Positions 6,300 to 56,266 of a stretch of DNA of 64,000 nucleotides are shown here, in pieces (positions within the stretch are counted from its first letter, which is position 1; each line of letters starts with the position of its first letter). The stretch is from Siphonodentalium dalli (taxonomy: Eukaryota; Mollusca; Scaphopoda; Gadilida; Siphonodentaliidae). Under the pieces are notes generated by a model. That model saw only the letters and a list, made by a program, of their open reading frames with translations. It did no database searches and was not told the DNA's origin. The DNA lies in contig CP136062.1 of assembly GCA_032622095.1 (NCBI GenBank), positions 231,088,578 to 231,152,577 of the forward strand, given 5' to 3'. Both the position numbers and the translations under genes were made by a program.

Positions 6300-6332
6300 C
6301 AACAAACAAACTTCTATGAATATTCTATAAGA

Positions 6333-7021
6333 TCATTCTTTGCTAGAGAGTTTGGACAGCACACGATCATCATACGACTCATGCATTTCGATAGTGATGA
6401 CATTCGGGTCGTTAGCAGTTGTAGTTTGTTGGAACACAAATCGTTGACTCGAATTGTCTACCGTTAACTCGGGAACCTTCTCCGGAATTGTAACAGGAAT
6501 TGATAGTGTATCTGCGATACTATTTGAAGTCCGTTGTGGCGTGAGTACCATTGTACTCATAGTTGGCGGATGAGAGTGCATAGAAGAATTTACTGCTGCA
6601 AGAATATGTGCTGACGAAGGAGGGTTAATCCGTTTTTCCTTCTGCCGTCGATTACAGAACCACACGCGCACAACCTCACGTTCCATGTTTAATGTCTCGG
6701 CAATCACACTTATCTCTGCTGACGTCGGTTTAGGAATATGAATAAAATGTTTCTCCAAAGCCACACGAATGGTAGCATCAATACTTGTTCGTTTTTTGCG
6801 CCGCCGATTGAACGAGTCAGGCGATACAGGTCCGCCGGACATCTCGGTCGGGTTTTTCGAGAGAGCTTCAGCATCCTCGAGCCATTTATGGAGAAGAGGT
6901 TTGAGCTTACACATGTTCTTAAAACTTAGGTTGAGAGCTTCGAATCGGGAGATGGTCGTCTGGCTGAAATCGTTTCCGTACATCTTTCCCATGGCTAATC
7001 CAACATCACCCTGTGTGAATC
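6333..7021 (-). CDS. pou2f: POU gene exon 8: end of POU-specific domain, homeodomain, C-terminus
   Basis: The acceptor is CTCGTTCAG|GATTC, with exon start at 7021. Two bases complete a split Gly codon from exon 7, then [20 protein letters not shown] continues the POU-specific domain to about 6867. A linker of about 20 residues follows, then the homeodomain ([14 protein letters not shown] to [10 protein letters not shown], about 6806-6627). The C-terminal tail of about 100 residues is Ser/Thr/Pro-rich and ends SKLSSKE with TGA at 6333-6335. The tail is much shorter than in vertebrate Oct-1. In vertebrates this region is divided by introns; here it is one exon. Confidence 0.96.
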
Positions 7022-13000: not shown

Positions 13001-16000
13001 CCGGCTGTACCTCCCCCTGTCCCCGGGGAGCAGTAGATGGTTACTGAATGTTCAGGCTCATCAGGGTAATAATTGTAAAACTTTGAGCGCTTTGGGCCTC
13101 ATGGGAAAGGCGCTTTACAAATGCTATACATTATTATGTGGGGTATTAAATCATGTCTTCTCTATATAGTGATGGCATTTTTTGCGGTGTAATACTGATT
13201 TTACGAAGGGGATATGAGAATGTCCTTGTAAATCTTGTCTCCTCTATATAGTGACGGCATTTTCGCGGGGTTGTAAATAATGACTTTTTTTGGTTTTGGG
13301 ATTGTGAAAAACGATAAATATTCACATTGACACTCTAACAGGTAACTATAGACCAGCCTTCTGGAGACAATTGAAAAAAAAAATAGAGGCAGGTAAGAAA
13401 ATCTCAACCAGGCAGGGTATCGGAAACAAAGAGTTTTTTTTTTTGGCCTAATCATTTTAACCAGTGATTCTTACCTGTAAGAGATTCTGTGGTTGTTGAA
13501 CTGAAGGCAAGGAGGTCTTGATGACGTTAAGATTCTGGAATGAGTTTAAACTTCAGTTATTGATTCTTAAGATAAGGTCTACCTTCAAACACTTATAAAT
13601 ACATCAAAAGTGTTTACTTTTATTAAATTAGATTTGTGTTAGAGAGAAAGAGAGATAATCTTTTATTAACATGACATGTGTATCCACAATACATAGGTGT
13701 ATTGCACAAACAAATAGTGATATTGCACCCTGCCACATGGGGGCTATAAGTCACGCTAATATTATGTAAGAATAACTGAAAAAACACATGAAAAACATCT
13801 GATGTCACCAATATTGTCTGAAAATGTGGCCCTTCCTGACATTTTTTGTTTATACACAATAATATTTACATTTGTTCACATTGTGGAACTTAGGTTACAA
13901 GGATGTATGAAGCAGTTCAGCAGAAAATAATTATCTCGCCATCCACCACTTGGAGCAAACAAACAATTCCTACACAATTGAATAGCTTACAAAATGATCG
14001 AGAGTAATATTAATATCTTCATGTAAAACAATCACAAAAACAACAGCTGAACTTGGTTATTTAGTATAAACTGTGTTTGTAGACTTTGTAAGGCTTAAAA
14101 AAGGTGTCCTTGTTAACCCTTTACCCAACAAACCAGCCAAAACCGGCCAAATAAAGCTTCAACAGCCTAAAATATCTTCGGTCTGTCTCAATAGAACCAT
14201 ACAAATATGGATATCATTGGAACCGGCTCCTTGACCACATTGTGATAGTTACAGTTATGCCCTGTGCCAATGCATTCTCTTATATATGCGAGTCGACCAT
14301 AGGTCGTCTCGCATATATAAGAGAATGCATTGGCCTAAAAAAAATTGTTTTTTAACACTTTTTACCATTTTTTCTTACATTCTTTAACAATTTTATAATT
14401 TTTAATGTGTTAAGCCAATGCATTCTCTTATATATGCGATGCGACCTATGGTCGACTCGCATATATAAGAGAATGCATTGGCACAGGGCTCTTCTGTTGG
14501 GTAAAGGGTTAACTGACATTTATAGGGGGTGGGGGATAAGGTGGGGGGATAAGATGTCCTTGCTAACAGTCATTTATAGGGGGTGGGGCAGGATAAGATG
14601 TCCTTGCTAACAGTCATTGAACCTAAACTTGGTTCTGCAGTTCTGTGTTTGTAAACTTTGTAAGTTGGTTATGGTTAGAGTCAGGGTCAGTTTTTTTATA
14701 ATAATATATAACAGTTTTGTATAGCGTAAATTCCACCGAAATGCTCTAAAGTGCTTGACATGTTAAACATAAAATACAATTGCAAACATGGACATCAACA
14801 AAAAAGTGAAACATTGAGGGGGGTGGGTGGAGTCAGGATAAGGTGTCCTTGCTGACAAACAAACAACCTAAACTTGGTTCTGCAGTAGTATCTGTGTTTG
14901 TAAACTGTGTAAGTTGGTTATGGTTAGGGTCCGAGTCATTACGTGCGCTCAGTATGGCGATCAGACAGATTCGTAGGTTGGTGTCACTCTACTCCGTTTC
15001 ACTCCATGACGTCACCAAAAACGACGTAAAACCTCGTGGCGTTCTGACATTTTTACTGTGCCGCGTTTTTGCTATGTTTATTTTATGTGTTGTTTTCGAT
15101 TATTTGTTTGTCGCCGATATCGCCATTTGTCGGGATTCCCTGTTTCTATATTTAAAACTGGCATGCTTGTAGTGAGCCTCGATTTCACTTTTTTCTCCCA
15201 GGTCAAAATACGTCAGAGTTATGACAAAAATAGATCGACCTACATTTTCTCCATCAGAACTCTACATCAAAGAGTCTATAGGCTCCTTCGGGACCTACAT
15301 AGACTCCTTCATTTGGGTATTTTTACTTATAATTGGGAAGTTTTATCATTTTTGGTTCGTGCGAAGACCTCTTTTTATCGTGCGGGAAAAGAGAGACATT
15401 CAAAACGCGATTCCGTAATTCGACGCAATAGGCTGAATAGCCTAACCTTCAGCCGAGTTCCGGGTCAAATACGACGAATGACGTAACACAAAACAAAACG
15501 CATTTGTTGACACAAACACCGTTTGAAGAGTTTATTATTACATAAAATGATCGTTATTGATTAATTATTGATATTTATTGTTGCATATTGGCTGCTATCA
15601 ATATTTACACAAATGGTATTAATTATTTCTTATAATTGCTCCTTTGGTCAACTTTGACTATCGGAAAATGAAAATCAAAATATGCCGCTGAAAAAAATGT
15701 AATCGATAGTCTCATCCTTTCGGCAACATGGAATTTATTTACTAAAATGATTAATATAGTAATTTGTTTTTTATCTGTGATGAAATGAGAAATGGTAATT
15801 GTCTTTTTTTGCTAACATTAAATTAAATTAAATAAATTAAGTAAAATACAGTGAAATTATTATTTTAATTATTTTGTATTACATTTTTGCGCATGTTGGC
15901 ATCTCTCTGAGTGCATTCTAGTTTATATAGGGGGGTTGAGGCAGGGTAAGGTGTCCTTGCTAACAAACAAACCTGAACAAGATTCTGCAAGAGTAACTGT

Positions 16001-19000
16001 GTTTGTAGACTCTGTAAGTTGGTTACGGGTAAGATCAGGGATGAGTTTTTGTTTTGGGTGGGTGGGGAACTGCATTATTTACACCAGAGTGTTTTTAAGG
16101 TGGCATCGCCCTAGTGTATAAGGTGTTTTCGCTAATAGACCAACCTCAACCTGATTCTGCAGTAGCATCTGTGTTCGTAGACTCTGTAGGTTGGTTATTG
16201 TTAGGGTCAGGGGTCAGTTTTTTTTTGGGGGGGGGGGGGTTGAATCTGCATCATTTACACACAGAGTTTTTTAAAGATGGAGTCACCCTTGTGTGTACTC
16301 TGTAGGTGGTGGCTATGGTTAGGGTCATTCTTGCTAACAGACCAACCTGAACTTGATTCTGCAGTAATAGCTGTGTTTGTAGACTCTGTAAGTTGGTGAG
16401 TTGGGCTGCATTAACAAACACATACTGCTGCACACCAGCCAGGGCCTGTACAGGAATCGCAACAGGCGAGTTAGCTGCAGCTTGGCCGGCCTGAGTGGCT
16501 GCTATGGTCTGGGCCTGTGTTAGCGTCTGAAATCAAATAAACCCTTATCATTAATACTCAATACAATGATCTGGTCAATCAGCCATTTAATAATTACATG
16601 ATTACTCAATGTTATCGGCCGTATATTGGGATAGCATCATAGAGGTCGCAACTGATACGGTCTGTGTCTGTGTCTGAAATAAAATAAACCCTTCACATTA
16701 CCGAATACAACGATCTGGACAATCAGCCATTTTATAATTACACGATTACCCAATGTTATCAGCCGTATATTGGGATAGCATCATAGCGGTCACAACTTAT
16801 ACGGTCTGGGCCTGTGTTAGTGTCTGAAATAAAATAAACCCTTCTCAAAACTGAATACAACAATCTGGCCAATCGGCCATTTAATAATTACATGATTACT
16901 CAATGTTATCGGCCGTATATTAGGACAGCATCATAGAGGTCGCAACTGATACGGTCTGTGTCTGTGTCTGAAATAAAATAAACCCTTCACATTACTGAAT
17001 ACAACGATCTGGACAATCAGCCATTTTATAATTACACGATTACCCAATGTTATCAGCCGTATATTGGGATAGCATCATAGCGGTCACAACTTATACGGTC
17101 TGGGCCTGTGTTAGTGTCTGAAATAAAATAAACCCTTCTCAAAACTGAATACAACAATCTGGCCAATCGGCCATTTAATAATTACATGATTACTCAATGT
17201 TATCGGCCGTATATTAGGACAGCATCATATCGGTCACAACTTATACGGTCTGGGCCTGTGTTAGTGTCTGAAATAAAATAAACCCTTCACATTACTGAAT
17301 ACAACGATCTGGACAATCAGCCATTTAATAATTACATCATTACTCAATGTTATCGGCCGTATATTAGGACAGCATCATATCGGTCACAACTTATACGGTC
17401 TGGGCCTGCATCTGAAATAAAATAACCCCTTCCCATTAACCCTTTACTCAACAGAAGGGCCCTGTGCCAATGCATTCTCTTATATATGCGAGTCGACCAT
17501 AGGTCGCCTCGCATATATAAGAGAATGCATTGGCTTAACACATTAAAAATTATAAAATTGTTAAAGAATGTAAGAAAAAATGGTAAAAAGTGTTAAAAAA
17601 AAGATTTTTTTTAGGCCAATGCATTCTCTTATATATGCGAGGCGACCTATGGTCGACTCGCATATATAAGAGAATGCTTGGCACAGGGCATAACTGTAAC
17701 TATCACAATGTGGTCAAGGAGCCGGTTCCAATGATATCCATATTTGTATGGTTCTATTGAGACAGACCGAAGATATTTTAGGCTGTTGAAGCTTTATTTG
17801 GCCGGTTTGTTGGGTAAAGGGTTAATACTGAATGCACGATCTGGTCAATCAGCCATTTCATAATTACATGATTACTCATTTTGGGCAATTTTATACTACA
17901 GTAATGCTCTAATTAATCGACTCCTTAACCACAGAATTATGGGTAACTTTTCAGAATTTAGTCGGAAATATGGCTTGTTGCCATTCATCGGAAAGCTCTC
18001 AGTGAGATAAGGAGTGGTTAAGGAGTCGATTAATTAGAGCATTGCTGTATAGTTGACAGTGGTTAGCATTATTTTTGGGCGACTGATTGATTCTGATAGC
18101 TGACACAGCATTTAAACAAATGTTGGAATCTGATTATATGGGAACCATCAAATCTTTTTATTTATATTTTAATAAGTACTGTGGAATGGTTATTTTAAGT
18201 CTATACGTTGGAGCATTTCTTAATATTAATTCTTTATAATCACAGTAGTTTCCATAACTATTGAATATGTTCTTATTTACAATTTGCTATTTATGTGATT
18301 ATTTATATTTGTGTCGCACTCTGCACAATAGTCTCGAATACGGTTGTGAATTGTCACAGCCAATGCCGTGCATTTTACATGCATTTTCCAGCGTCTTTTA
18401 AAGATTTTGTTTTGATAAAAAGGCATAAAGCTCTAGTTTTTTTCATGTGAAATACAAGATCTTCAATGATTTATGTTGGGATATAAGATTTTATGAAACT
18501 CATTTGATAAATTTGATTCACAACTTGTTGTGAATCAAATTTATCAAACTTATTTCATAAAATCTTATATCCCAACATAAATCCAAGATCCTCTATATAT
18601 ACATGTACTTTAATAGCACAAAAACAGAGATTCATTTAAGAATTTAAACAAAAACTCTATTGGAACCAAATAGCAACAAGAGCTGGGTTGTCGCATGGTG
18701 CACACCCCTCCATAGAAAACATCGTCTGAACTACACGCAATTGTAAATATTTGCTTCTCAATTCGGGACGAAAGGATCTGCTGCGATAAGCTAATTAAAA
18801 TTATTTTGCCATCGAGAGTCACTGTATTTAATCAATATATAAGAATGATGGTGTTTGTCGTCAATTTGGATATAATATTTGTAAACATTACTCCTTTGAA
18901 CAAGATTATTCTCCATTTCTATTTCATCACCCTACCGCAGTGTTTCACAACACTTTAAGATTATTCTCCATTTCAGGGCTGGCGGTCTAGAAAATCCAGG

Positions 19001-22000
19001 AGGGCTATTAATAGCTCTCCTAGATTTGCATAGGAGGGCTATAGCCCTCCTCAACTTTTACAGTTTTGATATTTTACCTGAGTTAATAATACTCAGGCCT
19101 GGCAGTTTGATAATTGCAGGAGGGCTGAAAATAGCCCTCTTGGGTTGCCTTAGAAGGGCTCATTGCCCACCTAGACTTCCCCTCTTCTCTTAAATTCATG
19201 TTATCTGAGCAGTGGATATTTCTAGTGGCATTGAACACTGTTTGGTTCTTTGTTGCTGAGAAGATATCAGAGATTAGCAAAAAGTTTTTGTTATATGTCC
19301 TAACAGGTTAGTTTCACAAAGTGAATTTCATATTGGCGAGATTTTACCAGCTTTGGGGGGGGCTGAAAATAGCCCTCCTGGAGTAAATTTTGCGAGGGCT
19401 GTAGGAGGGCTATCAAATAGCCCTCCTCAGATTTCCAGGCCTGCCATTTCTATTGGATCACCCTACCAGAGTGTTTCACATAATTTTAATATAAGATTGA
19501 AAATTGACCCATGTTTATTTTCATGGCATTGTTCAGGTAAATTGATCAAATATGAAGCATTTCTGGTTAACTATAACTGTACCTGGGTATGATTGACTGC
19601 ATCGAGTGTGTGTTGCTGGGTTATATATTTTGACTGTAACTGTACCTGAGTATGATTGACTAGACGACTACAGATAGCATGTGTTGTTGGGTTCTGTATT
19701 TTTACTGTAACTGTACCTGAGTATGATCGACTACAGTGAGTGTGTTGTTGGGTTATGTCTTTTGACTGTAACTGTACCTGAGAATGATTGACTAGACGAC
19801 TACAGATAGCGTGTGTTGTTGGGTTATGTATTTTGACTGTAACTGTACCTGAGTATGATTGACTGCATCGAGTGTGTGTTGCTGGGTTATATATTTTGAC
19901 TGTAACTGTACCTGAGTATGATTGATTAGACGACTACAGATAGCATGTGTTGTTGGGTTCTGTATTTTTACTGTAACTGTACCTGAGTATGATCGACTAC
20001 AGTGAGTGTGTTGTTGGGTTATGTCTTTTGACTGTAACTGTACCTGAGAATGATTGACTAGACGACTACAGATAGCGTGTGTTGTTGGGTTATGTATTTT
20101 GACTGTAACTGTACCTGAGTATGATTGACTGCATCGAGTGTGTGTTGCTGGGTTATATATTTTGACTGTAACTGTACCTGAGTATGATTGATTAGACGAC
20201 TACAGATAGCATGTGTTGTTGGGTTCTGTATTTTTACTGTAACTGTACCTGAGTATGATTGACTAGACGACTACAGATCACATGTGTTGTTGGGTTATGT
20301 ATTTTGACTGTAACTGTACCTGAGTATGATTGACAGCAGCGAGCGTGTATTGCTGGGTTATGTATTTTGACTGTAACTGTACCTGAGTATGATTGATAGC
20401 AGCGAGCGTGTATTGCTGGGTTATGTCTTTTGACTGTAACTGTACCTGAGTATGATTGACAGCAGCGAGCGTGTATTGCTGGGTTATGTATTTTGACTGT
20501 AACTATACCTGAGTATGATCGACAGCAGCGAGTGTGTGTTGCTGGGTTATGTATTTTGACTGTAACTGTACCTGAGTATGATCGACAGCAGCGAGCGTGT
20601 ATTGCTGGGTTATGTATTTTGACTAACTGTACCTGAGTATGATTGACAGCAGCGAGCGTGTATTGCTGGGTTATGTATTTTGACTGTAACTGTACCTGAG
20701 TATGATTGACAGCAGCGAGCGTGTATTGCTGGGTTATGTATTTTGACTGTAACTATACCTGAGTATGATTGACAGCAGCGAGCGTGTATTGCTGGGTTAT
20801 GTATTTTGACTGTAACTGTACCTGAGTATGATTGACAGCAGCGAGCGTGTATTGCTGGGTTATGTATTTTGACTGTAACTATACCTGAGTATGATTGACA
20901 GCAGCGAGCGTGTATTGCTGGGTTATGTATTTTGACTGTAACTATACCTGAGTATGATTGACAGCAGTCTATGTAAACATACACTCAGATTCATACTGAT
21001 ACTGAGTCTATTGCATTCCAATCAACTTTTCATTTCTGAACGGTTGTGGGCTTCCCCCAAATTACGTCACACGGCACTAAATATAAATCTGAAATTAGTT
21101 GTGATTGACAGGCGTAAACATGGTCACGTGCCAGTGCCGTCATGGCCGCTTCAACCCTGTGAAGCCGATTCTAAGAATCGGAATTAATAGTTGCAGGGTT
21201 TGTGACTTTTCGTTCGGCGGTTGTTTTACTGACAATAAAGGGAAACAGCTAGCTTCCGGGATCCAAAATAATATGTACAATAACTAAGACAGATCTTCTT
21301 GAAATTATAAAAAATGTCAATTTATGTGGATCTCTCGGACTCATATCAGAACGACTTATATATATAGATTGGCCAGGCGATTTGTCGCCCATGTTGTCAA
21401 AAAATAACACAAATCAATGGCCACGAATCAAAAATACATGAATGTCGGGACTATCTGCTAAAACAACTACAGAACTAAAAAAAAGTTAAATGACATAACA
21501 AAACGATCTATCAGTTCCCCAGTACCGGCAGTAGTACCACCGCAGCCAAAACGAGCGTATAAAGCAACACAATTCTACCACCAACCCCACCGAAACCCTC
21601 CCGACCTTACACAGCCGTATAATTAGCTCCAAAGATTGGCCAGTTGTACCCTAATTACAGTTGCCTGCAATCCAAATTCCGGTGATTCTTGATTTTAAAC
21701 TTTCGACCGCTCGTCAACAATCTACTTTATTTGTCGATTTGTGAATTTCTCTTCCGGTATAACATGACGTCATGGCTACTATTTTAACAACATTTAGCCA
21801 CACCTTCGGAATTTCCACACCGAGAGCATGTGACATGTTACTAGTTTTTTATTGGGGCACACATTTCTTGGAGCTAAGTTTTGATTGGCGGTAATTACAA
21901 GGAATCCCGGGTTTGGGAAATGAAAACTGAACGAAAGGTCGTCAGACCCACTATTTTTTTATATGTGGGTATGTAGTTTACTCCAGACTGGATTGACAGC

Positions 22001-25000
22001 AGCGAGCGTGTATTGCTGGGTTATGTATTTTGACTGTAACTGTACCTGAGTATGATTGACAGCAGCAAGCGTGTATTGCTGGGTTATGTATTTTGACTGT
22101 AACTGTACCTGAGTATGATTGACAGCAGCGAGCGTGTATTGCTGGGTTATGTATTTTGACCGTAACTGTACTTGAGTATGATCGATTGCAGCGAGCGTGT
22201 ATTGCTGGGTTATGTATTTTGACTGTAACTGTACCTGAGTATGATTGACAGCAGCGAGCGTATATTGCTGGGTTATGTATTTTGACTGTAACTGTACCTG
22301 AGTATGATTGACAGCAGCAAGCGTGTATTGCTGGGTTATGTATTTTGACCGTAACTGTACCTGAGTATGATCGATTGCAGCGAGCGTGTATTGCTGGGTT
22401 ATGTATTTTGACTGTAACTGTACCTGAGTATGATTGACAACAGCGAGCGTGTATTGCTGGGTTATGTATTTTGACCGTAACTGTACCTGAGTATGATTGA
22501 CAGCAGCGAGCGTGTATTGCTGGGTTATGTATTTTGACCGTAACTGTACCTGAGTATGATCGATTGCAGCGAGCGTGTATTGCTGGGTTATGTATTTTGA
22601 CTGTAACTGTACCTGAGTATGATTGACAGCAGCGAGCGTGTGTTGCTGGGTTATGTATTTTGACTGTAACTGTACCTGAGTATGATTGACAGCAGCGAGC
22701 GTGTATTGCTGGGTTATGTATTTTGAATGTAACTGTACCTGAGTATGATTGACAGCAGCGAGCGTGTATTGCTGGGTTATGTATTTTGACCGTAACTGTA
22801 ATTGAGTATGATTGACAGCAGCAAGCGTGTATTGCTGGGTTATGTATTTTGAATGTAACTGTACCTGAGTATGATTGACAGCAGCGAGCGTGTGTTGCTG
22901 GGTTATGTATTTTGACTGTAACTGTACCTGAGTATGATTGACAGCAGCGAGCGTGTATTACTGGGTTATGTATTTTGACCCCGTAAATGTACCTGAGTAT
23001 GATTGACAGCAGCGAGCGTGTGTTGCTGGGTTCTGTATTTTGAATGTAACTGTACCTGAGTATGATTGACAGCAGCGAGCGTGTGTTGCTGGGTTATGTA
23101 TTTTGACTGTAACTGTACCTGAGTATGATTGACAGCAGAGAGCGTGTATTACTGGGTTATGTATTTTGACCGTAACTGTACCTGAGTATGTTTGACAGCA
23201 GCGAGCGTGTATTGCTGGGTTATGTATTTTGACCGTAACTGTACCTGAGTATGATTGACAGCTGCAAGCGTGTATTGCTGGGTTATGTATTTTGAATGTA
23301 ACTGTACCTGAGTATGATTGACAGCAGCGAGCGTGTGTTGCTGGGTTATGTATTTTGACTGTAACTGTACCTGAGTATGATTGACAGCAGCGAGCGTGTA
23401 TTACTGGGTTATGTATTTTGACCCCGTAAATGTACCTGAGTATGATTGACAGCAGCGAGCGTGTGTTGCTGGGTTATGTATTTTGACCGTAACTGTACCT
23501 GAGTATGATTGACAGCAGCGAGCGTGTATTGCTGGGTTATGTATTTTGACCGTAACTGTACCTGAGTATGATTGACAGCAGCGAGCGTGTGTTGCTGGGT
23601 TATGTATTTTGACTGTAACTGTACCTGAGTATGATTGACAGCAGCGAGCGTGTATTGCTGGGTTATGTATTTTGACCGTAACTGTACCTGAGTATGATTG
23701 ACAGCAGCGAGCGTGTATTGCTGGGTTATGTATTTTGACCGTAACTGTACCTGAGTATGATTGACAGCAGCGATTGTGTGTTGCTGGGTTATGTATTTTG
23801 ACCGTAACTGTACCTGAGTATGATTGACAGCAGCGAGCGTGTGTTGCTGGGTTATGTATTTTGACTGTAACTGTACCTGAGTATGATTGACAGCAGTGAG
23901 CGTGTGTTGCTGGGTTATGTATTTTGACTGTAACTGTACCTGAGTATGATTGACAGCAGCGAGTGTGTGTTGCTGGGTTATGTATTTTGACCGTAACTGT
24001 ACCTGAGTATGATTGGCAGCAGTGAGCGTGTGTTGCTGGGTTATGTATTTTGACCGTAACTGTACCTGAGTATGATGGACAGCAGCGAGCGTGTGTTGCT
24101 GGGTTATGTATTTTGAATGTAACTGTACCTGAGTATGATTGACAGCAGCGAGCGTGTGTTGCTGGGTTATGTATTTTGAATGTAACTGTACCTGAGTATG
24201 ATTGACAGCAGCGAGCGTGTGTTGCTGGGTTATGTATTTTGACTGTAACTGTACCAGAGTATGATTGACAGCAGCGAGCGTGTATTGCTGGGTTATGTAT
24301 TTTGACTGTAACTGTACCTGAGTATGATTGACAGCAGCGAGCGTGTGTTGCTGGGTTATGTATTTTGACTGTAACTGTACCTGAGTATGATTGACAGCAG
24401 CGAGCGTGTATTGCTGGGTTATGTATTTTGAATGTAACTGTACCTGAGTATGATTGACAGCAGCGAGCGTGTGTTGCTGGACTTGCTGAACCTGTTGTTG
24501 CTGTAGTAACTGTTGCTGCAGTTGTTGCTGTACAATTTGTTGTTGTTGTTGTAACTGTTGCTGGAGGTTCTGCAGATCTTGCGTTGACATGCCGAGAGTG
24601 GCCCCGAGTCCTGAGACACTAGGAGCGGCAATGGGCAGCTGAAATTTTAAATTGGCATCAAAGGTGAAAAGTTGGGAAACACAAATTTTAATTGATGTGA
24701 CTATTTTAATAGCAAAGGCCATCCATACATTGTATCTTTAACACTGAAGTTGAATTCAATTGTTGAGTGTGTTGCTTATCGCACACTCTTTATGGCTTTT
24801 GTTAACAACATGGCATCCGAGAGTGGCCCTGAGTTCTGAGACACTAGGAGCGGCAACAGGCAGCAGAAATTTAGGCACAGTATGACATTTGCCCTCTCAA
24901 AGCCCAATGTTTATGTTTTCAAAATAAGAAATAACTCTAAGGTGCCCATTATTTCGTTAAATGTCACTTTAACTAACTATAAATGGACATGTCTAAAGAT

Positions 25001-27125: not shown

Positions 27126-28471
27126 ATTACAACAACAACACTGCATAGTGTGCTTCAGAACGAAAAAGTTGAATAAAATCAACAAATTTGTGAATTTAAA
27201 AAATATTCAAACATTAATGTAAATGGAGAAAATGCGACATTACACCAGTTTACACCTTTTATATGGAGCCGGCCTCGGACTTGGTATACACTTTATAGTG
27301 CTCCCCCACAAGGGAGCCTGTTTCAACTACATGTACCTGTATTTATATGTAAAGAATAATTGTAGGGTCTTGGAGTGATTTGCAATAATATTTTTTTAAA
27401 GAAGTGAAGAAAGAAATTTCTAAATAAAACATCTCAAAATAAGTAAAATGACCAAGTTATGCTTACCAAAAAAAGTGCTTAAAGGTACACAGGTTTTGAA
27501 AATGTTCTGAATGGTACACAGGGTTTGTGATCGGCACCAGTGCAGTTACTTATACTGTGCTCCTGAATGTCTGACGCCCATCACTTCCATCAGCAATTCG
27601 TTTTCCATTCATTTTAATTTTCCTTGGTATGCACGGGGGCCAGGATAATATTGTAGGATACAAGGTTGAAATTTTAAGAATTATTAATTTTTGGGACCCG
27701 CCACATGGGGAACGCAAGTTTTTTCCTGTCCGACCTCGGACACACACCCTTCCAACACAAGTTTTTTCCAAGGGCAATTTGGGACCCATCCCCAGTTTGA
27801 TGAACAATTGTGAAAAGAGCAGGATAATTAGGCAGACCAAGGGTGTGAAAATTTTTAAATAATCATCCGGATGAAATGCCAATCATGTAACAGTCCTTCC
27901 CATGAGGAAAACACAGCGAGAGCACTTATTTGCTCTCACAATTCAGAAGACAGGTGTCATTGTGCCTCTAATGTAATCTAAGTTGGGTTTTTCTCAAACA
28001 AAATGTCATTGTGGGATAGACCTATGTCCATTTACACTTTCACATGCCAATAATTTAACTGAGATGAGAAAGGTTCTAAATATACCTTTAGACAGATCAA
28101 TAATCAACGATTACAGTCACCATAAGCATTTTGACAACAGGGACGAGTGCAAAGTTTAGCACCCGTGAATTAAAAATAGCGAGTGCATACAGGTGCGAGA
28201 GCAATCACTCATGTATCCTGGGAAGGACTGATGTAAGCTCAATAAAAATAACCAGAAATATCAGAAAATCACAAAACACTTATTAATTTGTCAATTAAGA
28301 TTCAGCATACATTCCCATATGTTACCCGCACCAGTACATGTGTATATATATATGCATCAAAGAAGTGTTAAGAGTAGTGTATACTCTCACTTGGTGACTA
28401 GCCCCAGCTAGATGACCAAATGGCAAATAGTCTGTTTTAAATTTTAATCATATAATTTTCCATCTGTTCCA
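27126..28471. other. Long intron stretch, nothing recognised
   Basis: Unique-looking AT-rich sequence between exon 1 and the possible upstream exon. A patch with CCGACCTCGGACACACACCC near 27730 and a TATATATATA run near 28343 are the only notable compositions. Confidence 0.4.
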
Positions 28472-28861
28472 TTAACCCTTTACCCAACAAACCGGCCAAA
28501 ACAAGCTTCAACAGCCTAAAATATCTTCGATCTGTCTCAATAGAACCATACACATATGGATATCATTGGAATCGGCTCCTTGACCACATTGTGATAGTTA
28601 CAGTTATGCCCTGTGCCAATGCATTCTCTTATATATGCGAGTCGACCATAGGTCGCCTCGCATATATAAGAGAATGCATTGGCCTAAAAAAAATCTTTTT
28701 TTAACACTTTTTACCATTTTTTCTTACATTCTTTAACAATTTTATAATTTTTAATGTGTTAAGCCAATGCATTCTCTTATATATGCGAGGCGACCTATGG
28801 TCGACTCGCATATATAAGAGAATGCATTGGCACAGGGCCGTTCTGTTGGGTAAAGGGTTAA
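28472..28861. mobile_element. piggyBac-type MITE, copy 4
   Basis: TTAA at 28472-28475 and 28858-28861 with CCCTTTACCCAACA ends and both reciprocal hairpins intact. Same orientation as copy 1. Confidence 0.93.
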
Positions 28862-28908
28862 CCATAACAAGTATAACATCAACATGTATTCTTTGCAAAT
28901 AGCAGAAA

Positions 28909-30890: not shown

Positions 30891-31083
30891 AGAGAAACAC
30901 TCATTTCATATCCTCTATATCATCACAAAAATGAATACTTGTTTTATAACATTTTATAGCATGTAAAATTACTCAGCTTTTCATTATATCGGTAGGCCCC
31001 AGAAATTCAAGCTCCCATCTACGCAAAGATTAACATTATACAATGATACAGGAAATCTGTATATCTTTCAATATTCATACCAT

Positions 31084-31474
31084 TTAACCCTTTACCCAAC
31101 AAGCCGGCCAAAAACGCCCAAATAAAGCTTCAACAGCCTAAAATATCTTCGGTCTGTCTCAATAACACCATACAAATATGGATATCATTGGAACCGGTTC
31201 ATTGACCACATTGTGATGGTTACAGTTATGCCCTGTGCCAATGCATTCTCTTATATATGCGAATCGACCATAGGTCGCCTCGCATATATAAGAGAATGCA
31301 TTGGCCTAAAATAAATCTTTTTTTAACACTTTTTACCATTTTTTCTTACATTCTTTAACAATTTTATAATTTTTTAATGTGTTAAGCCAATGCATTCTCT
31401 TATATATGCGAGGCGACCTATGGTCTATAAGAGAATGCATTGGCACAGGGCCCTTCTGTTGGGTAAAGGGTTAA
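31084..31474. mobile_element. piggyBac-type MITE, copy 5, one hairpin damaged
   Basis: TTAA at 31084-31087 and 31471-31474 with the usual ends. The second hairpin has lost part of its 3' arm (CTATGGTCTATAAGAGAATG), so only the first remains symmetric. Confidence 0.92.
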
Positions 31475-44437: not shown

Positions 44438-44804
44438 TATTGTGAGTTACGGCATCAAATCATCTAATACAATTCCAATTCAATAAAAACTCTCTCTCAC
44501 ATAAATATTAAAGATGGATTTAAATAACGTATTTTATATATTTTCCTGGGTATGAAATAATGCGTATGAGTTGGAAATCCCCGCCAGGAAACGCTTCTAT
44601 CAATTAATATTGATTTTATTCCGAATATTTTATTATAAAATGAGATGATAAAGTGGGACACTTTATTTATCTATTTTTAGAACAGACCATTCAGGCGATA
44701 CCATATAGATAGATATAATTATGGTGTCCCTATAGTTATGCTCCGAACGTCAAATGTCCCAGATTGATTGATTGTATTGTTTTATTACATAGGCCTGCCT
44801 GCTG
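44438..44804. other. No gene seen
   Basis: AT-rich stretch between the 41-bp repeat and the miniature LTR element, ending in GCCTGCCTGCTG. Confidence 0.4.
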
Positions 44805-45076
44805 TGTAGCGGTCGCGTTATAAATCTTGAAGGCCGATGACTTCTCTGATCGAGAGGTCTAGATCCCTTAGACGTTAGACGTTTTGAGCGATCACCGAAG
44901 TTAAGCAACGTCGAGTCCGGTTAGTCCGGGGATGGGTGACCACTGAGTCGCACTTCTGCCCCTCCCCTCTCTCTCCCTCCCTCCCCCTCTTTCCCCTCTC
45001 TCCCATCTCCCTCCCCTATCTCCCTCTCCCCTACTCTCCATCCTCTACCTCTCTCCTTCTCCCTCTCTCTGTTACA
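44805..45076 (+). repeat. 5' LTR of the miniature element
   Basis: 272 bp. Shares TGTAGCG-TCGCGTT, AAGGCCGATGACTTCTCTG and TCGAGAGGTCTAGAT with the 3' LTR. Compared with that LTR the 3' half of the 5S segment is missing, and a CT-rich microsatellite (about 44953-45070) has expanded. Confidence 0.85.
44890..44941 (+). pseudogene. 5S rRNA-derived segment in the 5' LTR
   Basis: GATCACCGAAGTTAAGCAAC then GTCGAGTCCGGTTAGTCCGG and GGATGGGTGACC correspond to roughly positions 40-90 of an animal 5S rRNA. The 5' third and the 3' end of the gene are absent, so this is not a functional 5S gene, though the internal control region is partly kept. Confidence 0.88.
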
Positions 45077-45077
45077 C

Positions 45078-45091
45078 TGGGGGCTCGTCCG
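45078..45091 (+). promoter_or_regulatory. Primer-binding site, tRNA-Pro type
   Basis: TGGGGGCTCGTCCG begins one base after the first LTR. It is the same 14-mer used as a tRNA-Pro primer site in known retroelements; the match stops there (CCCCCC follows). Confidence 0.75.
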
Positions 45092-45167
45092 CCCCCCGGA
45101 GTCTGTGTCATGATGCGACCGCTCTGGGGAGGACTCGGTGAATCTCAAAAAGAACGAGGGAGTATAG

Positions 45168-45388
45168 TGTAGCGATCGCGTTGTAAATATAGAAGGCCGA
45201 TGACTTCTCTGCTCGAGAGGTCTAGATATCTTTGACGGAGTCTTTGTCACGGTCGTTAGACGCTTTGTGTGATCACCGAAGTTAAGCAACGTCGAGCTCG
45301 GTTAGTCGTTGGATGGGTGACCGGCTTGGGATTCCAGGTGCTGCCAACTTTCGGTGCGAATCCCGCACTTCTCTCTCGTTTTGTTACA
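45168..45388 (+). repeat. 3' LTR of the miniature element
   Basis: 221 bp, TGTAGCGATCGCGTTGTAAA to CTCGTTTTGTTACA. It keeps a longer 5S segment than the 5' LTR and lacks the CT expansion, so the two LTRs have diverged by indels since insertion. Confidence 0.85.
45271..45343 (+). pseudogene. 5S rRNA-derived segment in the 3' LTR
   Basis: 73 nt: GATCACCGAAGTTAAGCAAC, GTCGAGCTCGGTTAGTCGTT, GGATGGGTGACCGGCTTGGG, ATTCCAGGTGCTG. This follows animal 5S rRNA from about position 40 to 110 with few changes and includes the box A, intermediate and box C regions of the internal RNA polymerase III promoter. The first 40 nt of 5S are replaced by unrelated LTR sequence. Confidence 0.9.
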
Positions 45389-46315
45389 GCTGCTACCGGC
45401 GACATTTTACCCACATTTGGTGGACTTCCGCAATATTAAGATATATACTAAGTGAACAGAGCAACATGCTGCCCTTGGCCTTGTTAAGCACACAAAATAT
45501 CGAGAGAAAAAATGTGTAAATTTTGAACCTTAAGTTTGAAAAGTCCCATTGAAACCGAAGAACTATATTTCGAAACGGTGTGATTCGGTTCTCCAATTAT
45601 TGTATCATCACAAAAGTCTAAACGCACGTGTACGACATTGTCACAACTCGTACGGCAAGACAAACATAAGAGTTCTAAATTTGCTGCAATTTTGACGAGT
45701 AGCTTAATTGCGAAAATCGTCAACAAAACTACGGCTCTGATAATCTGATTTTCCATTCTGTCATTATGTTTTAGTGCGGGAATTGTTCTCAAAGCACATC
45801 ATATATAGAAAATTTGACATTGGAACGATCGGATTTAGCTATTTTTGCTGGGAAAACCCCATGCTAAATATAGTACCCAGTCGGTGACAGAAAGGAAGTA
45901 TGGTTAGAAGGAACTAAATGTTTTCCAGATAGGCCTCAGTGTTAATGTTTGGCCCCGCCCACTAAATTTGCTACATACGAATTGCACGAAATCGTAAATT
46001 TCGTGAAGCCCAACCCTTCGCGCATCTTTTGCCATGTATGAGTATACTATCCTGACCACAATTTTTTCAACTTTTCAACACGCGTTTTCCACACTACCCC
46101 ACTTTTTGCACAAAATTTGAACTGCTGACGAAAGCAAATACCCTGCCTCATTCTCCCGTCAATGTTTGGACACGAACGCATTTCAGACATTTATACATGC
46201 CATAGGTATATATATCTTTTAAATTTGTAAATATTATTGAAATATTATACGCCAATCGCGTGCCAGAATTTTTTTAACTCGTATTCGAGATTGGGTGTAA
46301 AAACGAAAGGGACGT
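45389..46315. other. No gene seen
   Basis: Unique-looking sequence. Short open frames on the minus strand near 45400-45790 show no recognisable domain or splice framework. Confidence 0.35.
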
Positions 46316-50462: not shown

Positions 50463-51228
50463 TGTGCCAAGACGACCCCAGGGACATAACTTTCAACCTG
50501 GGAAGAAGATAGGAAATATCTAAGTCAGAGGGGCGCTCGATTACCACACATATCAGCGCCGCTGTTGACCACATCTAGATCGCAAGTACTGAGTACCAAA
50601 TCGAATTAGCGAGCGTCCATGCAATAACATAGGGAAATGATTTGTGGAGTAAACAGAACACGGTCTTGAGGATTAGCAAGACCAGATGTATCGCCTAGAA
50701 AGCTACTGAACCCAGGAGAGTTAATAGGACCCATGGGGAGATGACGATAACTCAATTACCCTAAGTACGATGAACCGACGCGCCGTGAAAATACACGTGG
50801 CCGTCATTAGCAGACACTGGGTATTTTAGGAAGAAGAAAACCGACATCCACAGACAGTTCTAACCAGTTTCTATCTGACCAACACAAGCGATCATCACGA
50901 ACCCTCGGACGCTTAGAAGATCAGAGTGGAGCAATGGACGGAAATACAAGGTAAACATTATGCTCTTGTATTTCTGACAACGCCCCACTGATGCGCCGAC
51001 GGAGGAAGAAGAAGAGCAGACGACAGGAAGACGAACTCAACCGGAACTCAACCGAGTAGAAGACAAGCAGACACACACAACCTATGAAGACGGAAGAAGA
51101 CCCGAAACCAAGCAGACGTCAGGAAGAGAAACCCAGATGCCGATGATTGAACATTATTGACTTTGTTATATATAAATAATCAAACAGTTCTGATAGCCTT
51201 AAGAGTTCTATGTACCCGTATTGGCACA
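50463..51228 (+). repeat. 5' LTR
   Basis: 766 bp, TGTGCCAAGACGACCCCAGG to CCCGTATTGGCACA with 8-bp inverted tips. TATATAAATA at 51169-51178 is a candidate TATA box, which would leave a very short R-U5. Differences from the 3' LTR seen: CACGTGG/CACATGG, AAGATCAG/AAGAGCAG and GACGTCAGG/GACGACAGG. Confidence 0.95.
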
Positions 51229-51239
51229 TATCTCTTAAC

Positions 51240-51259
51240 TGGTGCCTTCGAGCCAGGAT
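51240..51259 (+). promoter_or_regulatory. Candidate primer-binding site
   Basis: TGGTGCCTTCGAGCCAGGAT starts with TGG, the complement of a tRNA CCA end, and its complement reads like a tRNA T-arm plus acceptor. It begins 11 bases after the LTR. I cannot assign the tRNA. Confidence 0.5.
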
Positions 51260-51364
51260 CTGAACGCTAATCACAGACACAACGTGAAGCCAGAAGAGGA
51301 ACAGTGTGCACAGAAACAGTGTGGGAAAATTCGCAAAACGTGAGTCTAATTGTTTATTATCATA

Positions 51365-52453
51365 ATGGCTACCCAACAACAACAATCACCTGGTGTTCTC
51401 GCCCCATTAACAGAATCTATCAATTCTCAAATTGCTGCAATGGCCATGACTACGGTGACACAGGTAGTGACGTCATTTGACGGGGACCCCACGAAATACC
51501 ACGGGTGGGTCAAGTCGATAGAAAAATGCGCGATCCTAACCGGCGCTAACGAAGCAAAGAAGCCCTATATGGCATTTCAGAGCGCGACGGGCCCCGTATC
51601 AGATTTTTTACAAAGATATTTGGCCACGAATCCTAACGCCACGTGGCAAGACACAAAAACTGAATTATCTAGTCGATTTGCCGAGATAAATGACATTCAA
51701 TTCGCCTTTTCGATGCTAAGAAAAATCAAGCAAAAACAAAACGAAAATTTACATGTGCTTGCCGAACGGATTTTGGAGATCGCGATTGTGGCATACCAAG
51801 AGCAGCCCGGCGGGATCAACGCGGTTGAAGGCCAACTCGTAGGGTTTTATATTGACGCTTTAAGAAGCGACAGTTTGAAAATGAAGTTGATCAGGGATGC
51901 GCCGAAGACACTAAAATTGGCAGCCGACATCGCCATGCGGGAAATGGGGATCCGACGGGTATTCAACCTACGAACGGGCCGCGAAAATTACAACGAAAAC
52001 GAACCGGAAGCAATGGAAATCGATAGTTTCAGAAACAAACGCGCGAGAACAACCTGCGATATTTGCGCAAGCGATAACCACACGACCCGTGAACACCGAT
52101 CACGCCCGAGACAGGTGCATGTCGAAGCGGTGGTTAAACCACGAACAGTCGAATGTTGGACGTGTCAAGGTGATCATTTCGCTCGCGACTGCCCCTTTAA
52201 GACCGAAAACCGGAGGCACGTATCTTGCTGGGTTTGCGAAGGTAACCACTTAGCTAGAAATTGCCCCTCTAAATCCGGAGATTCGAAGCAAAAGCAATGG
52301 AACACGCCAGTAACGCCACCTAGGGGAATCCGCCGAGATCAGCCGAACCGATCACGTGACCTATCCCATGATACACCTCGTCACAGCCGGAGATATCCGA
52401 CATTAAACGAACCACCGCGACTAATGACCCCGCCCACATACGCAAAAAACTAA
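51365..52453 (+). CDS. gag: Gag polyprotein
   Basis: The start is ATG at 51365 (MATQQQQSPGVLAPLTESIN); an earlier in-frame TTG is not credible. About 362 residues. The N-terminal half holds a capsid-like helical region (FDGDPTKYHGWVKSIEKCAI; ATWQDTKTELSSRFAEINDI; YIDALRSDSLKMKLIRDAPK), typical of Ty3/gypsy Gag. Two zinc knuckles follow, CWTCQGDHFARDC and CWVCEGNHLARNC, spaced CX2CX3HX4C, one residue shorter than the classical knuckle. A CDICASDNHTTREH motif precedes them. The basic tail ends YAKN with TAA. Gag forms the particle and binds RNA. The frame is intact. Confidence 0.93.
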   Translation: MATQQQQSPGVLAPLTESINSQIAAMAMTTVTQVVTSFDGDPTKYHGWVKSIEKCAILTGANEAKKPYMAFQSATGPVSDFLQRYLATNPNATWQDTKTELSSRFAEINDIQFAFSMLRKIKQKQNENLHVLAERILEIAIVAYQEQPGGINAVEGQLVGFYIDALRSDSLKMKLIRDAPKTLKLAADIAMREMGIRRVFNLRTGRENYNENEPEAMEIDSFRNKRARTTCDICASDNHTTREHRSRPRQVHVEAVVKPRTVECWTCQGDHFARDCPFKTENRRHVSCWVCEGNHLARNCPSKSGDSKQKQWNTPVTPPRGIRRDQPNRSRDLSHDTPRHSRRYPTLNEPPRLMTPPTYAKN

Positions 52454-52486
52454 GGAATCCTCTCATTGAGGCCACATGTGAGAGGA
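52444..52486 (+). promoter_or_regulatory. Programmed -1 ribosomal frameshift signal
   Basis: The slippery heptamer A AAA AAC lies at 52444-52450 in the right register (GCA AAA AAC TAA), directly before the gag stop codon. Seven bases later TCCTCTCA (52458-52465) can pair perfectly with TGAGAGGA (52479-52486), giving an 8-bp stem with a 13-base loop. A -1 shift enters the pol frame, which is open from here. Heptamer, spacing and stem all match the known design. Confidence 0.9.
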
Positions 52487-54027
52487 AATTTAGTATCAAC
52501 ATTGTGGGGAACCCTAGCTCGTGTTTAGTCAGAATAGGTAAAAATAAATATCGCTCATTAGTGGATAGTGGAGCGGAAGTATCATTGATTCACAAACGCG
52601 TCTATGACGCATTACAGTTCCGACCGAAACTAACTAGGGAACACATCAACCTTAGCTCCGTGAATGGGAAGTCACTGGGCGTACTTGGTAGCGTGGAACT
52701 GACCTTCAGAATGGCGAAACTAAAATTAACCCATAAATTTTATGTGGCGAATGATATGACCCGGAATATGATCTTGGGGAGGGATTGGTTGACCTCTCGG
52801 GGGGTCAGACTATATTATGATCTGGGATGCCTCAAGGTCAGTGACGTGTACGTCCCATTGGAAACGGACGCGCACATAGCTTCCCTGCTGAGACTGACCA
52901 GCAAAGTTAGTTTAAAGCCCCGAACATCGACTTTATGTATGGGAAAATCAAAAAACTTAGCTTCTCTTCACAAGTCGACATTAATAGAGGTTGCCCAAAT
53001 CGAGAAAGGTTACCTAGCATCAAAACCCGGTTTGGAGGTAAGGAAGTCGATTTCGGAACTAGGTAAAAGACATCAAGTCCCATTGCTACTTGTGAACAAC
53101 ACTAATAAAACCGTTTATCTACGGCGCGGCAGTGTAGTTGGAAAATCAGTCACGTATGGACGAAGACGCAATCGTGCTGGGAAAGGTTATTGTCAAATAA
53201 CATTACAGCAACAGCCTAAATCATTTATGATGGTACACAAACACGTGAAACAGGCGAAACGCAAACAAGCAGCGAAATTTAACAAAAAGGCCACAGACAC
53301 CAAATTCGAGATTGGCGAGGCCGTCTATGTGAAGAATCATTTACGAAAAAGCAAACTTGAAAGCAAATGGAAACTTTACTTCCGCATAACCAAGCAAATA
53401 ACGCCCGTTACTTTCGAGTTAAGGAATCAAGTAACTGGGAAAGTCACACAATCCCATGCTGAACATATGCGCAAAGCCAACCTGGAATGGGAAATCCCCA
53501 AAACTGACAACAACAAGCGTGCTCAAACGTATGTTGTTCCCCCCGAAGACGAAGATAGCGACGTTCCTGCCCCTAACCCTGTGGGTGGGTCTTCTGGCGA
53601 TGAAACAGAACCATTACCAGATGATGTAATCGCTCGATATCGGAGACAATGTTCGGACTCCGATGACGAAGATGTTCCTTTAAGCGAGCTTAAGATGCGC
53701 TTACAGCGTAGAAAGACGCGACTCGCGCGCTCAGAGCCGCTACAAAACCCTGACTCGTCCATGGACGAGAGACCAGAGCCGAGTGCCAAGGCACGACGCG
53801 CTCCAGCGCCTCGTCGACACGGGCGCAAAGTAACAAAGATGTTTACGAGTGATGACGGCTCAGAGGATGAGTTAATGGAAGTGGCCGCCATTGAACAAAA
53901 CCCTCGTGAATGTAGGCCCGTACCGGCCCCACGCAAGTGTAAGCAGCTCATGAATGGAGCGCTTAGTGACATAAGAACCAAGCAATCATTTAAAAACCTG
54001 TTGTACTCAATGGCAGCAGTGATGTAA
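52444..54027 (+). CDS. pol: Truncated Pol: protease fused to the integrase C-terminal tail
   Basis: Expressed by -1 frameshift from gag. The retropepsin domain has its catalytic LVDSGAEVSLIH (about 52558-52593) and the partner motif NMILGRDWL near 52765. After RRGSVVGKS the sequence switches, around 53150-53210, to VKQAKRKQAAKFNKKATDTK then FEIGEAVYVKNHLRK and VTFELRNQVTGKVTQSHAEH. This resembles the region after the integrase core plus the GPY/F-like C-terminal module. RT, RNase H and the integrase zinc and DDE parts are gone, yet the frame is kept through the junction. An acidic, Ser/Pro-rich tail of about 160 residues (GDETEPLPDDVIARY; SDSDDEDVPLSELK) ends at TAA 54025-54027. Confidence 0.88.
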   Translation, partial: KKLRNPLIEATCERKFSINIVGNPSSCLVRIGKNKYRSLVDSGAEVSLIHKRVYDALQFRPKLTREHINLSSVNGKSLGVLGSVELTFRMAKLKLTHKFYVANDMTRNMILGRDWLTSRGVRLYYDLGCLKVSDVYVPLETDAHIASLLRLTSKVSLKPRTSTLCMGKSKNLASLHKSTLIEVAQIEKGYLASKPGLEVRKSISELGKRHQVPLLLVNNTNKTVYLRRGSVVGKSVTYGRRRNRAGKGYCQITLQQQPKSFMMVHKHVKQAKRKQAAKFNKKATDTKFEIGEAVYVKNHLRKSKLESKWKLYFRITKQITPVTFELRNQVTGKVTQSHAEHMRKANLEWEIPKTDNNKRAQTYVVPPEDEDSDVPAPNPVGGSSGDETEPLPDDVIARYRRQCSDSDDEDVPLSELKMRLQRRKTRLARSEPLQNPDSSMDERPEPSAKARRAPAPRRHGRKVTKMFTSDDGSEDELMEVAAIEQNPRECRPVPAPRKCKQLMNGALSDIRTKQSFKNLLYSMAAVM

Positions 54028-54406
54028 ATAATAATGAAACGCCCGAACTATCTACCTGGATTTCATTTCGGAATGAATGAGACCCCACTTTTAACTGTCT
54101 TATTGATGACTGATGAGTCTAACCTGGCTTCGTAAATGTTGAAAATAGTTAGCCCGACGCCCCAGACCGAATCGCGAATAAATAGTCATGTTCGGATCAA
54201 TGACAGGTCGCGCGCCCCATGAAACCCGGCACGTGCGCATGGCGATTTAATAAATAAAGCTTTGAACTTTACAATCACGCGCCGACAGATAACGTGCACG
54301 CCGCCACCCTTAGGGTTACTGCGTTTAAGCGCACCCCGCTCAAATAAACACGATCGAAAATATGCTCACGACTGACTTAGTGAACAAAAAAGTATTACCC
54401 CAATGA
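54028..54406 (+). other. Untranslated stretch between pol and ORF3
   Basis: No frame of note. AATAAATAAAGC near 54249 could be a polyadenylation signal but lies far from the LTR. Confidence 0.35.
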
Positions 54407-54697
54407 ATGGTAGAGATGGCCATGGTAGTATTTTGCCCTAGTAACGTAGTTACAGTAGTAATTTTCATTATCTTGACCCACCGATTCTGGTGGAAATTTG
54501 TTAAACATCAGTTGCCAAGGTTAGCCATTATGTATAGTAAGCAGTTAGACCAGCGACCTGAGGATATCCTGAATGCCGTGTTCAAAGAACCCATCGACGA
54601 AGCAATGGAGACGGATGCACCAAAGCCGTCTGCGCTATTCCGGGACAACACTCAGGAACGCCTACATGTATATCCAATTATAGCCGTCAGAGGCTGA
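54407..54697 (+). CDS. ORF3, small single-pass membrane protein
   Basis: ATG at 54407 gives 96 residues. Residues about 6-26 (MVVFCPSNVVTVVIFIILTH) form a hydrophobic segment, followed by a basic stretch RFWWKFVKHQLPRLA and a polar tail (DQRPEDILNAVFKEPIDEAM). It sits where some gypsy elements carry an env-like or accessory gene, but there is no signal-peptide-plus-ectodomain layout and no fusion-type motif visible, so I do not call it an envelope protein. Confidence 0.55.
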   Translation: MVEMAMVVFCPSNVVTVVIFIILTHRFWWKFVKHQLPRLAIMYSKQLDQRPEDILNAVFKEPIDEAMETDAPKPSALFRDNTQERLHVYPIIAVRG

Positions 54698-55149
54698 CCA
54701 CATCTGTGGCGGATTTGGATTAGTATTAATTATGTATCGTATATTAATGTATTCCGAATTTCCTTCGTAATTATTGTTGCGCGGATATCAGAATCATTTG
54801 CATGTATATAGACATTTATGCATTTCATATATTTCAAATATTAATTGTTGCATAACGATGTCCAGGGTATTATAGTTGTATAATCATCAGAATGATTATA
54901 GCAAGCGTTGAATAGGGACTATAAATCCCGACATTCGGTCATAAGTTTTGATGATTGAAATCAATCACCCCGACTTATCTTGTGTTTAACTGTTCGTCAA
55001 CCAATCCATCTATATAATTAGTCGTAAATTCCATTTTCGTATTGGGCCGATCTGACGACCCTCAAGCGATACCGATAAATTGGAAAAGTAACCATTGTGT
55101 ATACTGACTGTGTCATTTGTTCTCAAACCTCACACAAATATCCGTTTGA
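54698..55149 (+). other. Internal region of the element, nothing recognised
   Basis: AT-rich stretch without a long frame, between ORF3 and the acidic frame. Confidence 0.35.
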
Positions 55150-55479
55150 GTATTACAGGCTGACCATGGCGGTGGAACAAGGGTCGACCAGTTGTCAGAA
55201 CCTACCCCATACTCGGACATTGAGGACGAAAATACCTCGACATCCGATGATGACGAAAATGACGACGCCATGAAATTTCAATCATAGTTTTACACCGAAA
55301 GAGTCACAGCCAGTGGGTCGGAGTTGTCTGAGAGACGCCCAGACGACCCGATCTACACGGAGACGACCGACATCGAACCAGCTATCCATCGCCGATGCCG
55401 CTGTTGCGAAACACTTCGACGAATCATCGACCTGCTGCGCAGCGACGAATTGGACTTGCGATTTCAAGATCAACTTTAA
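55150..55479 (+). pseudogene. Acidic ORF interrupted by one TAG
   Basis: One frame runs from after a TGA at 55147 to TAA at 55477-55479, with a single TAG at 55285-55287. Part one reads VDQLSEPTPYSDIEDENTST + SDDDENDDAMKFQS; part two reads DDPIYTETTDIEPAIHRRCR + CCETLRRIIDLLRSDELDLR. TTACAG|GCTGACC at 55153-55165 could be a splice acceptor, and there is no good ATG, so it may be a 3' exon. Function unknown. Confidence 0.5.
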
Positions 55480-55483
55480 ATCG

Positions 55484-55500
55484 AAAAAGTGAAGGAGTAA
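55484..55500 (+). promoter_or_regulatory. Polypurine tract
   Basis: AAAAAGTGAAGGAGTAA abuts the 3' LTR at 55501, in the position of a plus-strand primer. Confidence 0.75.
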
Positions 55501-56266
55501 TGTGCCAAGACGACCCCAGGGACATAACTTTCAACCTGGGAAGAAGATAGGAAATATCTAAGTCAGAGGGGCGCTCGATTACCACACATATCAGCGCCGC
55601 TGTTGACCACATCTAGATCGCAAGTACTGAGTACCAAATCGAATTAGCGAGCGTCCATGCAATAACATAGGGAAATGATTTGTGGAGTAAACAGAACACG
55701 GTCTTGAGGATTAGCAAGACCAGATGTATCGCCTAGAAAGCTACTGAACCCAGGAGAGTTAATAGGACCCATGGGGAGATGACGATAACTCAATTACCCT
55801 AAGTACGATGAACCGACGCGCCGTGAAAATACACATGGCCGTCATTAGCAGACACTGGGTATTTTAGGAAGAAGAAAACCGACATCCACAGACAGTTCTA
55901 ACCAGTTTCTATCTGACCAACACAAGCGATCATCACGAACCCTCGGACGCTTAGAAGAGCAGAGTGGAGCAATGGACGGAAATACAAGGTAAACATTATG
56001 CTCTTGTATTTCTGACAACGCCCCACTGATGCGCCGACGGAGGAAGAAGAAGAGCAGACGACAGGAAGACGAACTCAACCGGAACTCAACCGAGTAGAAG
56101 ACAAGCAGACACACACAACCTATGAAGACGGAAGAAGACCCGAAACCAAGCAGACGACAGGAAGAGAAACCCAGATGCCGATGATTGAACATTATTGACT
56201 TTGTTATATATAAATAATCAAACAGTTCTGATAGCCTTAAGAGTTCTATGTACCCGTATTGGCACA
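55501..56266 (+). repeat. 3' LTR
   Basis: 766 bp, same length as the 5' LTR and ending GGCACA, followed by the target duplication ATGC. Confidence 0.95.

Follow-up and report, generated by a model that had tools for sequence, protein, structure and literature searches.

A miniature LTR element in an animal genome with putative 5S rRNA-derived promoters in both of its LTRs

The stretch of DNA analyzed here (the window; 64 kb) contains a miniature LTR element of 584 bp at positions 44805-45388. The same window carries exons of a POU class 2 (POU2F/Oct-1-like) gene near 6489-7022 and 10129-10203 on the minus strand. Because of this gene the host can be placed among the animals, as an earlier, sequence-only reading of the stretch had supposed. 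The features of the element and its flanks are as follows.

44801-44804, plus strand: left copy of the target-site duplication, GCTG, identical to 45389-45392
44805-45076, plus strand: 5' LTR (LTR1), 272 bp, TGTAGCG...TGTTACA, from repeat comparison
44890-44941, plus strand: 5S-derived segment of the 5' LTR, from BLASTN to human 5S and landmark mapping
44899-44913 (box A), 44916-44921 (IE) and a box C cut short at 44941, plus strand: boxes of LTR1, from landmark mapping
44942-45069, plus strand: 3' portion of LTR1, for the most part an expansion rich in pyrimidines, from tandem-repeat rows within 44962-45067 and the LTR alignment
45077-45167, plus strand: internal region, 91 nt, with no ORF of at least 130 aa in the ORF listing
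45078-45091, plus strand: putative primer-binding site, a 14-nt match to the tRNA-Pro 3'-end complement, occurring once in the window
45147-45167, plus strand: polypurine-like tract, interrupted, 18/21 purines by count
45168-45388, plus strand: 3' LTR (LTR2), 221 bp, TGTAGCG...TGTTACA, from repeat comparison
45234-45349, plus strand: 5S-derived segment of the 3' LTR, of full 5S length (Rfam RF00001 positions 1-120)
45280-45294 (box A), 45297-45302 (IE) and 45310-45327 (box C), plus strand: boxes of LTR2, from landmark mapping
45379-45382, plus strand: candidate terminator of Pol III transcription, TTTT, 6 nt from the LTR2 end
45389-45392, plus strand: right copy of the target-site duplication, GCTG, identical to 44801-44804

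The anatomy proposed in the sequence-only reading was confirmed. The two direct repeats with TG...CA ends share the termini TGTAGCG...TGTTACA at lengths of 272 and 221 bp, and they enclose the 91 bp that had been reported between them. The matching GCTG flanks were also confirmed, with a 4-bp flank match at the spacing of the element occurring by chance at 452 of 63,396 window positions (0.7%). One base past LTR1, where a tRNA-Pro-type primer site had been claimed, the 14-nt TGGGGGCTCGTCCG starts at 45078, its single occurrence in the window. Its letters equal the initial 14 of an 18-letter complement to the tRNA-Pro 3' end. The purine tract described before the second repeat is there as well: 18 purines in the 21 nt preceding LTR2 is a level reached by only 125 of 63,979 windows of the sequence (0.2%), but the tract is broken by C and TAT, so that it is only moderate evidence of a polypurine tract. 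No ORF of at least 130 aa overlaps the element, which contains two T-runs of at least four, including the TTTT near the end of LTR2. This one copy combines several features that define a TRIM, namely two LTRs, a total length below 1000 bp, no coding capacity, a primer-binding site, a polypurine tract, and a short duplication. An inverted repeat of 14 nt (86%) pairs the LTR start (44808-44821) with the internal region (45110-45123). Our LTR search found no second LTR copy in the rest of the window. Exact LTR patterns had 0 matches in collections of viral contigs and prokaryote genomes, from which close records were possibly left out, a result that is expected for an animal element.

The two LTRs have diverged considerably. 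In their 5' parts they differ at 16 of 137 aligned sites (7 transitions and 9 transversions; K2P 0.127), and overall, 163 of 197 aligned sites are identical. They also differ by an 18-nt indel, and relative to LTR2, LTR1 has lost the 3' end of its 5S segment and has a longer pyrimidine tract. Besides this divergence, LTR1 lacks the end of box C and, ahead of box A, carries a TTTT (44882-44885). From these signs we judge the copy to be old and damaged, and it is probably dead.

The alignment of the LTR 5' parts scored 198.9, which was reached by 31 of 5,965 random window pairs when tandem arrays were included; in 2000 random window pairs, the best score (257.2) exceeded that of the LTR pair. 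Such high-scoring pairs come from tandem arrays, since none of 3,759 random pairs reached 198.9 once eight listed arrays were set apart, and the runner-up (187.2) consisted of two copies of a dispersed repeat. Under a loose rule (TG...CA ends and 4-6 bp matching flanks), 174 same-strand repeat pairs yielded five solutions: the 584-bp element, a Gypsy-like element at 50463-56266, one pair in a tandem array, and two pairs sharing the repeat copy at 7402. For the 584-bp element, the rule's alternative was a 5-bp TGCTG match with a 3' end at 45466, 78 nt beyond the LTR homology. We attribute this match to chance because LTR1 has no corresponding extension.

Both LTRs contain sequence derived from 5S rRNA, as had been claimed; the reported length of 52 nt stands for LTR1, and LTR2 gave 77 nt against the 73 reported. 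With human 5S as the query, BLASTN aligned 77 nt of LTR2 at 78% and 52 nt of LTR1 at 77%. In an 801-base search, the Rfam model RF00001 aligned over its full length to 45234-45349 at 25.4 bits (E 0.0077), which falls below the curated threshold of 38 bits, and at that threshold the whole window had no Rfam 5S match. The likeness of LTR2 to human 5S is far higher in the promoter boxes (box A, 12/15; IE, 4/6; box C, 15/18) and in the 3' half (positions 98-121, 17/24) than in the 5' part, where the first 40 nt are strongly diverged (19/40). In LTR1, box C ends after 5S position 92. We also compared both LTRs with the box motifs given for the plant element Cassandra (PMC7215508). Box A matched at 10/12 in each LTR, and box C matched at 13/13 in LTR1 and 12/13 in LTR2; the gap of 18 nt between box A and box C in both LTRs equals the spacing published there. 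Unlike these paper-derived motifs, which make an independent test, a 42-nt 5S box pattern was designed after viewing both LTRs, so that its two window matches at up to 3 mismatches, one per LTR, cannot be set against its 0 matches in 100 shuffles as against an independent control. RNA folding of the predicted transcript did no better than shuffles (z 0.43), and LTR2 folded alone (z -1.29) did not indicate a kept 5S fold. From their letters, the LTR segments read as a 5S-derived promoter region and not as a 5S gene.

As the two segments resemble 5S and share one orientation, they could also be a piece of some unusual tandem array of 5S rDNA. There are only two units, however, and their flanks carry a 4-bp duplication; the window has no 5S gene at the Rfam cut-off, and the 5S box pattern (up to 3 mismatches) matches the window only inside the two LTRs. 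We regard such an array as extremely improbable. Slightly less remote, and still very improbable, is a pair of SINE3-like (5S-headed) retroposons or 5S pseudogenes lying side by side, with LTR-like features that arose by chance. Heads derived from 5S are known in SINE3, and the two segments are 381 bp apart. Against this, the stretch that the two repeats share starts 66 nt ahead of the LTR2 5S segment, the primer site lies exactly 1 base past LTR1, and an A-rich tail is absent, as are long duplications, the ones seen being of 4 bp. The U3-like part shared by the repeats already largely refutes the pairing of two such retroposons. SINE3 has a 5S-derived Pol III promoter, a feature that the element described here probably shares. 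SINE3 lacks LTRs and depends on a LINE (PMC10886601), whereas our element has LTRs.

With the array and the retroposon pair set aside, we consider it very likely that the element is a non-autonomous TRIM whose LTRs have a putative internal promoter derived from 5S rRNA. TRIMs whose Pol III promoter comes from a small RNA gene are known as TRIMp3. The term was coined for Cassandra, Helenus, and Ajax together (Kojima 2024, PMC10886601). The element resembles this group in that each LTR has 5S homology and box motifs, although box C of LTR1 is incomplete. The 5S piece probably represents a borrowed promoter. We infer Pol III use along the following lines. TFIIIA and TFIIIC would bind box A, IE, and box C of the 5' LTR, and Pol III would begin at the 5S-like +1, which lies some 46 nt ahead of box A. 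The predicted RNA would span the primer site and the internal part and terminate at the TTTT close to where the 3' LTR ends. Reverse transcription would be primed by a tRNA-Pro-type tRNA, and a Gypsy-type helper with 4-bp duplications may provide the enzymes for reverse transcription and integration. If the parent LTR had an LTR2-like terminal TTTT, transcripts from the 5' LTR would frequently end ahead of the primer site, and the cycle would have to rely on read-through.

The window itself holds a recent Gypsy-like element (50463-56266), with 766-bp LTRs that are 99.6% identical and ATGC flanks. Its gag frame has a Ty3 capsid match just under the curated cut-off. The protease is above the cut-off, and a weak integrase C-terminal match lies about 160 residues on in the same frame, which leaves no room for RT/RNase H within that frame. 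A tRNA-like primer site about 11 nt past the LTR is not of the Pro type. We considered this neighbor as the direct helper of the TRIM. Its 4-bp duplication agrees in length with that of the TRIM and speaks for a helper of this type. Past its LTR, however, a tRNA-Pro site is missing, and we do not take this particular element to be the helper. In a search that scored the 7,993 candidates with the most shared words, the protease frame had 12 relatives, two of them under bacterial names, presumably those of clam gill symbionts or their kin. These two read as clam DNA in bacterial bins, and the support that they lend to a mollusc host is weak at best.

The POU2F gene bears on the identity of the host. 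Its exon at 10129-10203 has KRRRIELG as its last residues. Among the 39 rows listed, those of Lottia, Batillaria, and Capitella read likewise, whereas KQRRIKLG stands in the named arthropod and deuterostome rows covering this stretch. The best identity, about 80% over 156 columns, was to Lottia. Neither a quick tree of 121 rows nor a tree of 40 chosen from those 121 gave a phylum placement. Judged from these residues, the gene appears to be of spiralian type, and the host is most likely a spiralian; a nemertean, an annelid, or a brachiopod would all be compatible with it. Near 24480-24620, a frame rich in glutamine is a possible further POU2F exon. Elsewhere in the window, a satellite with 56-bp units (about 71 copies) occupies the edge at 1-3955, and a minisatellite with 63-bp units and also a 252-bp period spans 19570-24480. 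A repeat unit about 390 bp long, which itself contains repeats of 70-80 nt, is dispersed over five sites in both orientations, with 92-98% identity among the copies (5909-6300, 14113-14513, 17436-17826, 28469-28862, and 31080-31474).

Among the known elements with a related layout, Cassandra is a TRIM of land plants with 5S in both LTRs (PMC7215508, PMC10853983) and a quoted size of 565-860 bp (PMC10886601). The window element resembles it in the 5S of both LTRs, in the 18-nt spacing of box A and box C, and in size. We nevertheless rejected membership in Cassandra, as the primer site given as conserved in that family, TGGTATCAGAGC, is missing, the window element reading TGGGGGCTCGTC after LTR1, and as the POU2F gene makes the host an animal and not a plant.

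Among the animal TRIMs, Helenus is described as tied to Gypsy and as having 4-bp duplications, with tRNA-Pro primer sites shared with Gypsy in some bivalve families (PMC10886601). The window element is like Helenus in its TRIM plan, in its 4-bp duplication, and in the primer site reported for those families. By the same account, however, Helenus LTRs carry tRNA sequence, whereas those of the window element carry 5S. ARAGORN found no tRNA in the window. A match to the tRNA B box in LTR2, GGTGCGAATCC at 45353-45363 with one mismatch, was discarded because the window has 2 such matches against 2.05 expected. With no ARAGORN tRNA in the window and a B-box-like match at chance level, membership in Helenus was rejected as well. 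The biv-TRIM of bivalves is likewise an animal TRIM, but it is described as being without an unambiguous canonical primer site (PMC6934838), and the terms "5S rRNA" and "5S rDNA" are absent from the main text on it.

The sequence-only reading had named no described animal counterpart, and that claim does not survive. Ajax, a TRIM with 5S in its LTRs, has been described from the nemerteans Notospermus geniculatus and Lineus longissimus (Kojima 2024, PMC10886601), and the claim of a first animal case falls with it. The window element is probably a further TRIMp3 family, like the known plant and nemertean cases. In the open-license papers of PubMed Central, we found Ajax as the only animal element whose LTRs carry 5S. 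According to its description, Ajax is 421 or 434 bp long, has 5-bp duplications, a tRNA-Leu primer site, and a polypurine tract, and its 5S covers the promoter region only (PMC10886601).

It is possible, though we think it unlikely, that the window element is a divergent Ajax family, with a nemertean or near-nemertean host and a single 5S capture shared with Ajax. The two have the same plan, being animal TRIMs with the promoter part of 5S in the LTRs, a primer-binding site and a polypurine tract, and a diverged region upstream of the boxes (PMC10886601), and a POU2F gene of spiralian type is compatible with any spiralian phylum. On the other hand, the published features differ in size (584 versus 421 or 434 bp), in duplication (4 versus 5 bp), and in primer site (tRNA-Pro type versus tRNA-Leu), and the 5S match of LTR2 continues past the boxes to about the 3' end of 5S, whereas that of Ajax is described for the promoter part only. 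In this one copy, the 5-mers at the LTR ends, TGCTG and GCTGC, match over only 4 bp, short of the 5 bp of Ajax. Compared with Ajax as described, the window element is thus probably a different family.

The differing duplication length and primer suggest either a switch of helper or a renewed capture of 5S. The sequence-only reading had inferred an independent capture. We give a little under an even chance to a third, independent capture of 5S by a TRIM, in a spiralian that is not a nemertean, moved by a Gypsy-type helper with 4-bp duplications. If so, plants, nemerteans, and another animal lineage would each have made 5S an LTR promoter, and LTRs would gain 5S promoters repeatedly. Counts of 5S in such genomes may include copies of elements of this kind. 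Set beside Cassandra and Ajax, the window element extends the animal TRIMs with 5S promoters past the one lineage found described.
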